A stretch of DNA of 64,000 nucleotides from Pseudomonas sivasensis (GTDB lineage: Bacteria; Pseudomonadota; Gammaproteobacteria; Pseudomonadales; Pseudomonadaceae), in the NCBI RefSeq assembly GCF_013778505.1, contig NZ_JAAOWU010000002.1, positions 248,001 through 312,000 on the forward strand. Direction: 5' to 3'. The notes under the pieces are model-generated. The model did no database searches and was not told where the DNA came from. It saw only the letters and a list, made by a program, of their open reading frames with translations. This document shows positions 39,208 to 42,599 of the stretch, one piece after another (positions within the stretch are counted from its first letter, which is position 1; every line of letters starts with the position of its first letter). Both the position numbers and the translations under genes were made by a program.

Positions 39208-39274
39208 CATCGGGGGCAAGCCCCTTCCCACATTTGGAATGCACTTCAATGTGGGAGGGGGCTCGCCCCCGATG
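39208..39274. repeat. REP pair, class B (diverging)
   Basis: An outward-pointing pair with spacer ttggaatgcacttca, close to the spacer at 27915-27927. It fills the convergent gap of tcyP and folA, starting 9 bases after the tcyP stop. Confidence 0.9.
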
Positions 39275-39277
39275 CTT

Positions 39278-39790
39278 TTAGACTTTTTCCCAGACTTCGA
39301 AGTTGTAAGCCGGCTTATCACCTTCGGCTGGGTTTGGCAGATTGGAAACCAACGTCCACTGGTTCGCATCAAACTCCGGAAACCACGCATCCCCTTCCGG
39401 ACTCAGCGCCACGCGCGTGAGATATAACCGATCCGCCTGCTCCAGCCCCTGCGCATACAGCTGCGCGCCACCGATCAGCATCAACTCATCCACGCCCTGC
39501 TCCAGCGCCCAGGCTTCAGCCCGCGCCACGGCGGCATCGAGTGACGGAAAAACTTCCGCACCTTCAAGCTTAAGATCGGTCTGACGGCTGACCACCAGGT
39601 TCAAGCGCCCAGGCAGCGGTCGCCCCAGAGAATCCCAGGTCTTGCGCCCCATGATGATTGGCTTGCCAAGGGTGGTGGCCTTGAAATATTTGAAATCCCC
39701 CGGCAAATGCCAGGGCATGCTGTTATCGACGCCGATCACGCGGTTTTCACCGAGGGCCGCGATCAGGCTTAAAGGGAGAGTTTTTTTCAT
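39278..39790 (-). CDS. folA: Dihydrofolate reductase
   Basis: FolA reduces dihydrofolate with NADPH. The 170-residue protein shows VIGVDNSMPWHLPGD with the active-site acid Asp32, the KPIIMGRKTWDSLGRPLPGR cofactor region (within one stretch near residue 43) and LMLIGGAQLYAQ. Normal length and start. It is divergent from the DUF2868 gene (69-base gap). thyA, the enzyme that generates its substrate, is 13 kb further along. Confidence 0.97.
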   Translation of the reverse strand: MKKTLPLSLIAALGENRVIGVDNSMPWHLPGDFKYFKATTLGKPIIMGRKTWDSLGRPLPGRLNLVVSRQTDLKLEGAEVFPSLDAAVARAEAWALEQGVDELMLIGGAQLYAQGLEQADRLYLTRVALSPEGDAWFPEFDANQWTLVSNLPNPAEGDKPAYNFEVWEKV

Positions 39791-39859
39791 GGCGACGAGA
39801 ATACCAGAGCCAAGACCTAGCGGTTATGCTCCAACCTCACTTGCTCAACAGGACGGCGC

Positions 39860-41239
39860 GTGACTGCACTGAACCCGCTGCAAAAACTCTGGCTGACAGA
39901 AACCGTGCGCCTGCGTGAAGAACACGCAGGCGCCCTGGAAGACTTGGAAGCCAACCGCCTGGCCCGCACGGCTGGCGGCGATCTGCCGACGCGCATCCAG
40001 CATCGCGCCTTGCATCTGGCCGAGCGCGATGGGCTGACTGCCGCCCTCACCCGCTGGCTGCAAGGTGCGCGTTTGGCACTGGTGCTGCTGGCGCTAGTCG
40101 CCGTTATTAGCGGCGCCGGGCTGGCCTTCGCGGCACTGGGCAACGGTTTGACCCCGGTGAATGTGTTCTGGGCCCTGGGCAGCCTGCTCGGTTTGAACCT
40201 GATCCTGTTGATAAGCTGGGCACTGGGCCTGCTGTTTGCTGGAGAGCACAGCGCCAGCCTTGGTCGCTTATGGCTGTGGCTCAGTGAAAAACTCGCCCGT
40301 GACGCCAAGGCCGCGCAATTGGCCCCGGCGTTATTGCTGTTGTTGCAGCGCCAGAAACTCAATCGCTGGGCAGTCGGTGTGCTGGTCAACGGACTGTGGC
40401 TGCTGGCATTGCTCTGCGCGCTGGTCATTCTGCTGACACTGCTCGCCACAAGGCGCTACGGCTTTGTGTGGGAAACCACCATTCTCGGTGCCGACACCTT
40501 CGTCGCCGTCACCCAGGCCCTCGGCGCCCTGCCCGCTGTGCTTGGTTTCAATGTACCGACCGTCGAGATGATCCGCGCCAGCGGCGACTCCGCCCTCAAT
40601 ATCGAAAGCGCCCGCCAAGCCTGGGCCGCTTGGTTGGTGGGCGTGTTGCTGGTCTACGGCCTGCTGCCCCGAATCATCCTCGCCCTGTTGTGCCTGTGGC
40701 GTTGGAAAGCAGGACGCGCGGCCTTGCGTCTGGACCTGAACCTACCGGGCTATAGCCAACTGCGTGAACGCCTGATGCCAAGCAGTGAACGCCTCGGCGT
40801 CAACGACGCCGCGCCCGAGCAACTGCACCACGTGACCGGCGGCGTCAGTGAGCTTGAAAGCGACGGCGCCCTGCTGGTGGCCATCGAGCTGGACGACCAA
40901 CACCCCTGGCCGCCCAAGCTACCAGCCCAAGTGAAAAACGCCGGCATCCTCGACAGCCGTGAATCGCGCAACAAGCTGTTGGAGCAGCTCACCCGCTTCC
41001 CGCCCGCGCGCTTGGCCATCGCCTGCGACCCCCGCCGTTCGCCGGATCGCGGCAGCCTCGCGCTGATCGCCGAACTCGCGCGCAGCGCCGCAGCCACCCG
41101 CGTCTGGCTGCTGCAAGCACCGCCTGGCCAAGCGCTGGATGCCGAACGCCTCGGCGATTGGCACACCGCGCTGCATCAACTGGATCTGCCCTTCGCCGAC
41201 TGCGCGCCGTTGAACTGGCTGGAGACCGGTCATGACTAA
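39860..41239 (+). CDS. DUF2868 membrane protein
   Basis: It starts with GTG at 39860 (AGGA site 8 bases upstream); 459 residues. An N-terminal helical segment of about 70 residues is followed by four predicted membrane helices (about 72-95, 100-128, 172-198, 252-283) and a cytoplasmic C-terminal domain of about 175 residues with alternating strands and helices. It matches DUF2868, which is always found next to a DUF3482 GTPase as far as I recall. Its function is unknown. It overlaps the next gene by 8 bases. Confidence 0.85.
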   Translation: MTALNPLQKLWLTETVRLREEHAGALEDLEANRLARTAGGDLPTRIQHRALHLAERDGLTAALTRWLQGARLALVLLALVAVISGAGLAFAALGNGLTPVNVFWALGSLLGLNLILLISWALGLLFAGEHSASLGRLWLWLSEKLARDAKAAQLAPALLLLLQRQKLNRWAVGVLVNGLWLLALLCALVILLTLLATRRYGFVWETTILGADTFVAVTQALGALPAVLGFNVPTVEMIRASGDSALNIESARQAWAAWLVGVLLVYGLLPRIILALLCLWRWKAGRAALRLDLNLPGYSQLRERLMPSSERLGVNDAAPEQLHHVTGGVSELESDGALLVAIELDDQHPWPPKLPAQVKNAGILDSRESRNKLLEQLTRFPPARLAIACDPRRSPDRGSLALIAELARSAAATRVWLLQAPPGQALDAERLGDWHTALHQLDLPFADCAPLNWLETGHD

Positions 41240-42599
41240 ACCGCTGAAACTCGCCGTGGTCGGCCATACCAACGTGGGCAAAACTTCGCTGCTGCGCACC
41301 CTGACCCGGGATGTGGGCTTCGGTGAAGTCTCCCATCGTCCCAGCACCACGCGGCATGTGGAAGGCGCGCGCCTGTCGGTGGACGGCGAAGCCCTGCTGG
41401 AGCTGTACGACACGCCCGGCCTGGAAGATGCCATCGCCCTGCTTGATTACCTGGAACGTCTCGACCGACCCGGCGAACGCTTGGACGGCCCGGCGCGCCT
41501 GGCGCGGTTCCTCGAAGGCAGCGAAGCGCGCCAGCGTTTCGAGCAGGAAGCCAAAGTGCTGCGCCAACTGCTGGCCTCGGACGCCGGTCTGTATGTGATT
41601 GATGCCCGCGAGCCGGTGCTGGCCAAGTACCGCGATGAGCTGCAAGTGCTGGCCAGTTGCGGCAAACCCTTGCTGCCGGTGCTCAATTTCGTCAGCAGCA
41701 GCGACCACCGCGAACCGGACTGGCGCGAAGCCCTGGCCCGCCTCGGCCTGCATGCGCTGGTGCGTTTCGACAGCGTCGCGCCGCCGGAAGACGGCGAGCG
41801 TCGTCTGTATGAAAGTCTGGCCCTGCTGCTGGAAAACGCACGACCGCAGTTGGAACGCTTGGTCCTTGATCAGCAAGCCCAACGCCAAGCCCGCCAGCAA
41901 AGCGCAGCGCGGTTGATCGCCGAATTATTGATCGACTGCGCCGCGTGCAGGCGCAGCGTGGTCACTGAAGATGAGCAGCAAGCCATCGGCGATTTGCGCA
42001 AGGCCGTGCGCCAGCGCGAACAAAAATGTGTGGAAGCTCTGCTCAAGCTGTTCGGTTTCCGCCCACAAGACGCGGCCGCCAGCGACTTGCCGCTGCTGGA
42101 TGGCCGCTGGGGCGACGACCTGTTCAACCCGGAAACCCTCAAGCAACTCGGCGTGCGCGTGGGTGGCGGGATCGCTGCCGGCGCGGCGGCGGGTGCCGGC
42201 GTGGATCTGCTGGTTGGCGGGCTGACGCTGGGCGCCGCTGCCCTGGCCGGTGCCATCGCCGGGGGCGCGCTGCAAACCGCGCGCAGCTATGGCAGCCGCC
42301 TGCTGGGCAAGATCAAGGGCCAACGCGAGTTGACCGTCGATGATAGCGTCCTGCGCCTGCTCGCCCTGCGCCAACGCCAGTTGCTCAAGGCCCTGAGCGT
42401 GCGCGGCCACGCGGCGATGCACAGCATCAAGGTCGATACGCCCCAGGACAAAACCTGGCGCGAAGGCAAGTTGCCGGAGGCGCTGCACAAAGCCCGTGCC
42501 CATCCGCAATGGTCGTCGCTCAACCCCCACGCCAAGCTGAGCCAGACCGAGCGTCAGGAGCAGGTCGAAGCCCTGGCCGCACGGCTCGATGAAGCGTGA
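41232..42599 (+). CDS. DUF3482 GTPase
   Basis: The 455-residue protein has a small-GTPase-type N-terminal domain with P-loop GHTNVGKT (11-18), a conserved Thr region RPSTTRH, and G3 DTPG (60-63). The C-terminal half (DUF3482) contains a glycine/alanine-rich helix pair (about 308-348, GGGIAAGAAAGAG) that looks like a membrane-inserting glycine zipper. The start lies inside the DUF2868 gene, so the two products are made together. The pair could be a nucleotide-driven membrane device; its target is unknown. Confidence 0.87.
   Translation: MTKPLKLAVVGHTNVGKTSLLRTLTRDVGFGEVSHRPSTTRHVEGARLSVDGEALLELYDTPGLEDAIALLDYLERLDRPGERLDGPARLARFLEGSEARQRFEQEAKVLRQLLASDAGLYVIDAREPVLAKYRDELQVLASCGKPLLPVLNFVSSSDHREPDWREALARLGLHALVRFDSVAPPEDGERRLYESLALLLENARPQLERLVLDQQAQRQARQQSAARLIAELLIDCAACRRSVVTEDEQQAIGDLRKAVRQREQKCVEALLKLFGFRPQDAAASDLPLLDGRWGDDLFNPETLKQLGVRVGGGIAAGAAAGAGVDLLVGGLTLGAAALAGAIAGGALQTARSYGSRLLGKIKGQRELTVDDSVLRLLALRQRQLLKALSVRGHAAMHSIKVDTPQDKTWREGKLPEALHKARAHPQWSSLNPHAKLSQTERQEQVEALAARLDEA

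Follow-up and report, generated by a model that had tools for sequence, protein, structure and literature searches.

A gene pair of a DUF2868 membrane protein and a DUF3482 P-loop NTPase in Pseudomonas sivasensis and its relatives, with a likely pseudo-GTPase domain in the membrane partner

We analysed a stretch of 64,000 nucleotides from Pseudomonas sivasensis (NCBI RefSeq assembly GCF_013778505.1, contig NZ_JAAOWU010000002.1, positions 248,001 to 312,000; called the window and numbered from its first letter), in which two overlapping open reading frames (ORFs) on the forward strand encode a DUF2868 membrane protein, here M, and a P-loop nucleoside triphosphatase (NTPase) with MMR_HSR1 and DUF3482 domains, here G. 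By computation, the two genes were found paired and in a constant order, with no widely conserved third partner. The catalytic residues and the glycine-zipper residues of G are conserved, a resemblance was detected between the soluble domain of M and the G domain of G, and the pair did not overlap with YcjX in our genome samples. We tentatively propose that M-G is an inner-membrane NTPase machine with a heterotypic pair of a G and a pseudo-G domain, which most likely fills the place of YcjX-YcjF. The initial annotation of the locus, made from the sequence alone, had suggested a GTP-driven complex that remodels or senses the membrane. Our results support this view in part and add to it a probable pseudo-GTPase partner, an open nucleotide specificity of G and the non-overlap with YcjX.

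Gene M spans positions 39860-41239 (GTG start, 459 amino acids; from ORF reading, Pfam and hydropathy) and gene G positions 41232-42599 (ATG start, 455 amino acids; from ORF reading and Pfam), with an overlap of 8 bases including the stop codon. Both ORFs, their overlap and their Pfam families agree with the initial annotation. M matched DUF2868 (PF11067) with 348.7 bits (curated cut-off 26.8, E-value 4.9e-104), and G matched both MMR_HSR1 (PF01926; 53.3 bits, cut-off 21.9, E-value 3.5e-14) and DUF3482 (PF11981; 381.6 bits, cut-off 29.2, E-value 3.4e-114). No other Pfam family, no NCBIfam entry and no solved protein was matched by M in sequence searches, and the NCBIfam GTPase matches of G were all below their cut-offs.

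Pairing of M and G across genomes

The phylum sample consisted of 398 evenly drawn genomes, and matches were counted above the curated cut-off unless stated otherwise. Profile searches found DUF2868 in 36 of these genomes and DUF3482 in the identical 36. According to the coordinates, M and G share contig and strand in all 36 carriers, with M first. None of 14 control genomes contained DUF2868 or DUF3482. We ran the DUF2868 profile on the phylum sample alone. In the class and family samples, the presence of M was verified by fetching 20 loci (16 + 4), which represent the remaining above-cut-off matches. In these further divergent loci M again stood before G (20/20). When the 26 fetched neighbourhoods and the window were compared, 26 of the 27 loci had M ahead of G and on one strand, with gaps of up to about 390 bases, and the 27th was a fusion of M and G in a single ORF. 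The named-genome set comprised the best 80 of 547 confirmed G loci, all of them close relatives (77/80 titled Pseudomonas). Here M was immediately upstream of G in every case (80/80), and the 8-base overlap was found in 67/80. Phylogenetic profiling of the pair had been proposed in the initial annotation, with frequent occurrence of each gene without the other as the outcome that would argue against it. Such solo occurrence was not seen. All of this supports the conclusion that M and G are an obligate pair.

In the family of the window, DUF2868 and DUF3482 were both present in 17/17 sampled genomes, with one above-cut-off copy each. The two families are universal in this sample, yet we found no function assigned to them. 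In the accessible text of open-access papers naming either domain we found no function test for DUF2868 or DUF3482, and the open-access literature yielded no biochemistry or phenotype for M-G. The papers contain hypothetical proteins annotated with a domain of this type (PMC12864544), a Pfam marker list in Salmonella that includes one (PMC12440251) and a taxonomic indel (PMC10797017). A proteome table of Thiodictyon lists a DUF2868 protein, not verified as the plasmid copy described below, among those more abundant in the dark (PMC6413534). The initial annotation had called the system undescribed and without assigned function. The latter part agrees with this literature, whereas "undescribed" was too strong: Pfam has entries for both families, and "GTPase/DUF3482 domain-containing protein" already appears as a product name in a public record.

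The fusion (genome G225, locus L075) is a protein of 720 amino acids, in which the membrane part of M is matched at residues 51-376 and DUF3482 at residues 447-607; it reaches the DUF3482 cut-off only when neighbouring segments are counted. The G domain profile (positions 1-182) was unmatched in the fusion and no P-loop was seen. The same genome has no second above-cut-off copy of M or G. We take this fusion as evidence that M and G work as one, in a form without the NTPase site.

A conserved third gene was also considered, by clustering all ORFs of at least 90 amino acids across 27 fetched neighbourhoods and the window. No wide cluster was obtained besides M and G: none of the others exceeded 5/28 loci, and the largest reflected mostly family-level synteny. 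This candidate was therefore rejected, at a BLAST threshold of 1e-8 that a fast-evolving small neighbour could escape.

The counts above leave out sub-cut-off DUF3482 matches, which concerned 5/41 of the genomes with a match in the phylum sample, 7/28 in the class sample and 1/6 in the family sample, as well as second weak DUF3482 matches in G054 and G130 and two weak DUF2868 matches (G275, G291). The weak DUF3482 matches fall within profile positions 118-271, mostly at about 150-205, which is the zipper region. The weak match in G279, read from its sequence, resembles a lipoprotein and has a glycine zipper. Four loci (L230, L231, L234 and L235) have a shorter M of about 375 amino acids, in which the M profile matches only part of the membrane region; the soluble end of these short proteins may differ.

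The NTPase G and the membrane protein M

Residues of G were counted first in 26 sequences and then in 46, after 20 had been added. Its G domain (residues 1-186, positions 41232-41789, forward strand) contains the P-loop GHTNVGKT, T40, the motif DTPG at 60-63 and N152 without the accompanying K or D. Invariant in 46/46 are N14, G16 and K17 of the P-loop, T40, D60, P62, G63, N152 and W164, while position 11 is G in 44/46 and S in 2/46. Among the added sequences, H12 is replaced by K in two, T61 by S in three and D180 by N in six, and A318 differs in four. These positions were not counted as invariant, and owing to such substitutions simple motif patterns missed two P-loops and three G3 motifs. 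The domain has the G1 (GxxxxGK[ST]) and G3 (DxxG) motifs of TEES-type P-loop GTPases, and the G3 glycine is followed by L, F or I in 46/46, a trait of GTPases without the Ras glutamine. The G4 motif NKxD is absent: N152 is kept in 46/46, but K was found in 0/46 and D in 1/46, so the guanine specificity of G is not assured. In these features G is like Era, Der and MnmE, with which it shares G1, G3 and the hydrophobic residue after DTPG; it differs from them in the missing NKxD and in its C-terminal DUF3482 with the zipper. K+-dependent GTPases are reported to carry a first Asn within GxxNxGK[ST] and a second Asn five residues past the P-loop Lys (PMC3466195). The first is present in G (N14, 46/46), whereas the second is missing: R, A or S, and never N, occupies position 22 in all 46.

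In DUF3482, a long helical hairpin is predicted (helices 201-237 and 245-273, positions 41832-42050, forward strand; AlphaFold2, block predicted local distance difference test (pLDDT) 75-94), followed by a hydrophobic glycine-zipper stretch at residues ~305-350 (positions 42144-42281, forward strand). The zipper is delimited by residue invariance and has low model confidence. Six of its residues (G317, G321, D325, G330, G340 and G344) are invariant in 46/46, and the key zipper residues are thus conserved as strictly as the P-loop. This bears out the glycine-zipper-like region that had been annotated in the C-terminal half of G. Hydropathy of 26 sequences including the window gave one strong peak in 12, two in 5 and none in 9, and by this measure the stretch is no plain transmembrane helix. 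The AlphaFold2 model of G (pLDDT 71.1) has a G domain and the long helical hairpin. Both AlphaFold2 models, of G and of M, are of middling confidence and were built from alignments of little depth, with 60 and 59 sequences that came almost entirely from pseudomonads. The fold neighbours of the G domain in VIA-align include Era, FeoB (Z 13.0), HflX and EngA/Der, at Z of about 12-13, in a ranking that is filled by the G domain and says nothing on whole-length relatives.

M has strong hydropathy peaks at residues 72-90, 109-127, 174-192 and 259-277 and a borderline fifth at 214-232. Across 26 sequences including the window, four hydrophobic segments were counted in 20, five in 5 and three in 1, in line with the four-helix protein with a soluble C-terminal domain that had been annotated. 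A conserved W-E-T-T motif lies between the third and the last strong segments (T207 in 26/26, W204 in 25/26), and R271, near the end of the last hydrophobic segment, is conserved in 26/26. Judging from the positive charges in the loop that joins segments 2 and 3, both ends of M may be cytoplasmic.

The C-terminal soluble domain of M (residues 330-459, positions 40847-41236, forward strand) is a probable pseudo-GTPase without P-loop, judged from hhalign and fold matches. When its profile was aligned with that of the G domain, it matched residues 102-176 with a score of 38.6 (E-value 7.8e-6), compared to 15.7 for the best of 200 column shuffles and 12.2 for the reversed profile. Profiles built from 46 sequences gave 38.1 for M domain against G domain, compared to 14.8 for the best of 100 shuffles and 13.7 for pooled E. 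coli GTPases. The match was replicated in subsets, the ten closest sequences (nine from the family of the window and one other) against the sixteen others, with all four combinations scoring 27.4-30.6 over the same stretch. Control pairings of the M domain with DUF3482, or of the M membrane part with either part of G, scored 11.1-17.9. Against seven single E. coli GTPase domains the M domain scored 9.6-14.5, against these pooled 15.5 and against YcjX 15.5, compared to 33.9 for the G domain of the window alone. LepA does not serve as a control, since its entry is a fragment that lacks the G domain. In VIA-align, M residues ~330-459 gave mostly Ras-superfamily G domains (most of 50 rows, Z about 7-8).

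Several observations weigh against this assignment. In the hhalign match, the aligned region of the G domain is confined to its second half (102-176) and leaves out the P-loop half. With full-length profiles the same stretch scores 39.3, but the E-value weakens to 4.9e-4. Four single divergent G sequences scored 10.7, 12.9, 16.0 and 24.6 against the M domain, three of them near noise, and therefore the comparison with single E. coli GTPases is not wholly fair. Two TIR domains top the VIA-align list (Z 8.8 and 8.7), and VIA-align itself warns that Z under 8 may reflect a common arrangement only. The best E-value of a Foldseek search with the M domain was 0.19. In the AlphaFold2 model of M (pLDDT 72.9) residues 330-459 form a predicted alpha/beta fold with a block pLDDT of only 42-82. 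Taken together, the profile match is strong compared to its controls and spans half a domain, and the fold matches are mixed with TIR and other Rossmann-like folds. We consider it likely, not proven, that the M soluble domain is a degenerate G domain. Eukaryotic pseudo-GTPase domains, e.g. in p190RhoGAP, likewise have a G-type fold stripped of nucleotide motifs; the M domain differs from them in its context, as it is part of a membrane protein of bacteria and has its active-type relative next to it. If true, regulation through such a pseudo-GTPase partner would be unusual among bacterial membrane GTPases.

A possible counterpart of YcjX-YcjF and alternative explanations

YcjX-YcjF (DUF463-DUF697) is a Psp-associated system of E. 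coli. Like M-G, it has overlapping genes that encode a P-loop NTPase and an inner-membrane protein of similar sizes, and neither pair has an assigned function. The gene order is reversed in comparison to M-G, and in M-G, unlike in YcjX-YcjF, the zipper region is on the GTPase. In the phylum sample, YcjX (DUF463) was found in 162/398 genomes and the pair in 36/398, with no genome in common. Shared ancestry inflates the naive P (2e-9), as 107/162 YcjX genomes belong to other classes, in which the pair was not found above cut-off. The class sample contained the pair in 21/369 and YcjX in 13/369 genomes, again with none shared. In a single family with both systems, 5/33 genomes carried the pair and 23/33 carried YcjX, with 0 shared (hypergeometric P 0.001, by genus 0.0035). 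A profile search of the genome of the window gave no match to YcjX, DUF697/YcjF or PspA. During phiX174 infection of E. coli, ycjX and ycjF are reported to rise along with membrane-damage genes (PMC8125068), and ycjX-like genes are described as often adjoining psp genes, with an unknown physiological link (PMC9239133). The non-overlap and the induction upon membrane damage make a replacement of YcjX-YcjF the most useful hypothesis. Should M-G and YcjX-YcjF prove to be two answers to a single task, work on either could inform the other.

This replacement has to be weighed against several results. Ancestry confounds the comparison, as all 36 pair genomes but only 55/162 YcjX genomes are in the class of the window, and the class sample taken by itself gives no significance (expected overlap 0.74, P 0.46). 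In the family test 5/33 genomes carry neither the pair nor YcjX, and the non-overlap was measured without an unrelated control family alongside. G279, G041 and G769 would carry both DUF3482 and YcjX if sub-cut-off matches were counted. The hhalign comparison of the G domain with YcjX aligned the P-loop only (E-value 0.0037). DUF3482 and M aligned with YcjF (DUF697) at E-values of 0.039 and 0.042, respectively, and no Pfam match to DUF463 or DUF697 was obtained. Homology of M-G to YcjX-YcjF was not detected beyond the P-loop in these profile comparisons and was rejected, and the faint alignment of DUF3482 with DUF697 was not counted. The broader idea of a non-homologous, independent replacement of YcjX-YcjF across Gammaproteobacteria, by an active G and a derived, membrane-anchored pseudo-G, such that two unrelated pairs serve one envelope-maintenance task, is conceivable and rather doubtful.

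In the mechanism that we propose, M would be anchored by about four helices and present its degenerate G domain, which lacks a P-loop, to the cytoplasm. G would be the catalytic partner, whichever nucleotide it uses, and its G domain may pair with the pseudo-G domain of M. This heterotypic pairing would recruit G to the membrane and probably control its nucleotide cycle. The cycle, in turn, could drive two parts of DUF3482, its helical stalk and its glycine-zipper hairpin, to insert into the inner membrane or shift within it. M-G would then most likely do inner-membrane maintenance or stress work, in the place that YcjX-YcjF has in other proteobacteria.

Other arrangements of a membrane protein and a GTPase are less probable. 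In FeoB the G domain regulates its own membrane part, and G could similarly be a regulatory GTPase that gates M, with M as a transporter or channel. FeoB is among the structure matches of the G domain, it shares with M-G the K+-type Asn of the P-loop and the coupling of a G domain to a polytopic membrane part, and the W-E-T-T motif of the polytopic M is in a predicted outside loop. We nevertheless regard gating as unlikely: M matches no Pfam transporter family and no solved protein by sequence, and the E. coli FeoB G domain is unlike the soluble domain of M (score 9.6). M-G differs from FeoB in that it consists of two separate proteins instead of one chain of G domain and Fe2+ permease, and in the absence of the second K-loop Asn. 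It is similarly improbable that M-G is a short dynamin-like remodelling pair, in which GTP-driven assembly would bend, tether or fuse inner membranes with the zipper tip as a paddle. Bacterial dynamin-like genes are reported to be usually paired, and hydrolysis by one pair needs heterotypic G dimers (PMC6104087). Like the paired proteins Cj-DLP1/2, LeoABC and IniA, M-G would be an operonic GTPase pair at membranes with a G domain, a predicted helical stalk (the long hairpin of the model) and a putative hydrophobic tip, and Foldseek gave weak, flexible, mostly whole-length matches of G to IniA, EHD and Irga6. In contrast to these systems, M-G is shorter (G has only 455 amino acids), one partner, M, is a polytopic anchor without P-loop, and the clear match is in the G domain only. 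The PADLOC profiles LeoA and LeoBC matched G solely at residues 3-151, VIA-align rows reach little past the G domain and the whole-length Foldseek rows have a root-mean-square deviation of 15-24. For the combination of GTPase, neck, trunk and paddle, we found weak flexible matches to IniA and EHD, with low model confidence at the tip.

The LeoA match in PADLOC, together with the dynamin-like DynA that is reported to guard Bacillus from phage (PMC8844932), could also indicate an anti-phage or mobile defence module. This seems highly improbable, as the PADLOC matches of G do not extend beyond its G domain, M matches 0 PADLOC families and the pair is present in single above-cut-off copies throughout the sampled family of the window. 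Plasmid matches to G were few as well, with 3/72,556 records in a screen that reaches nearer relatives only, namely one plasmid and two chromosome-sized records. Since the G domain has Der, Era and HflX among its closest matches in sequence and fold, G could instead be a ribosome or RNA GTPase held at the membrane by M. We consider this very unlikely: the Pfam search found no RNA-binding family in G, DUF3482 has an invariant hydrophobic zipper instead and the membrane partner M is constant.

Flanking sequence and occurrence in mobile elements

Upstream of M, a folA-like ORF (assigned by eye) is divergently oriented (positions 39278-39790, reverse strand; ORF reading), and an ORF on the opposite strand lies 7 bases past the end of G. 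With these flanking ORFs, M and G look like their own unit. An alignment of 81 upstream regions identified the conserved promoter-like element tagcggttatgct at positions 39818-39830 (forward strand), with TATGCT as a possible -10 box. It is kept throughout Pseudomonas while much of the adjoining spacer varies, and may be a promoter element. A ribosome binding site-like ACAGGA (positions 39848-39853, forward strand) was read from the sequence 6 bases 5' of the GTG of M.

The plasmid that matched G is a 485-kb plasmid of Thiodictyon, which carries the M-G pair. M itself matched no plasmid record, although this plasmid carries it, as the screen detects nearer relatives only. The other two records, NZ_CP119142.1 and NZ_CP119140.1, are 2.17-Mb Neisseria gonorrhoeae records of chromosome-like size that are filed as plasmids; the G relative is 44% identical in both. 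The viral contig collection contained one G relative, and the matches among phage records were Pseudomonas phage Y10 and 14 from Moraxella prophages, of which we inspected one. In Y10 (OQ572411, a record marked unverified; L170) the whole pair lies between glpQ-, thyA- and lgt-like ORFs, as seen by eye, and this stretch looks like host DNA. In the Moraxella phage Mcat9 (33556-33601; L169 4920-4965) the annotated attR ends 23 bases before the G relative, and the gene lies beyond attR. In the viral contig (L168), G follows phage-like genes. The position of attR in Mcat9 and the phage-like genes of the viral contig suggest a site of prophage insertion directly before G, which may lie between M and G. 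We rejected the pair as cargo of mobile elements or phages, given the few records, the chromosome-like genes around the Y10 copy and the position of the Moraxella gene beyond attR.

The closest named loci are 95-98% identical across G and mostly from Pseudomonas. Pseudomonad-like G sequences with 82-84% identity to that of the window were also seen in records titled Halioglobus and Pantoea (L148, L152 and L159), which are possibly mislabelled or mixed assemblies. In the window, a long imperfect inverted repeat, gggggcaagcccc ... gggggctcgcccc, lies at 39208-39274 between a transporter gene and folA, and appears REP/REPIN-like by eye.

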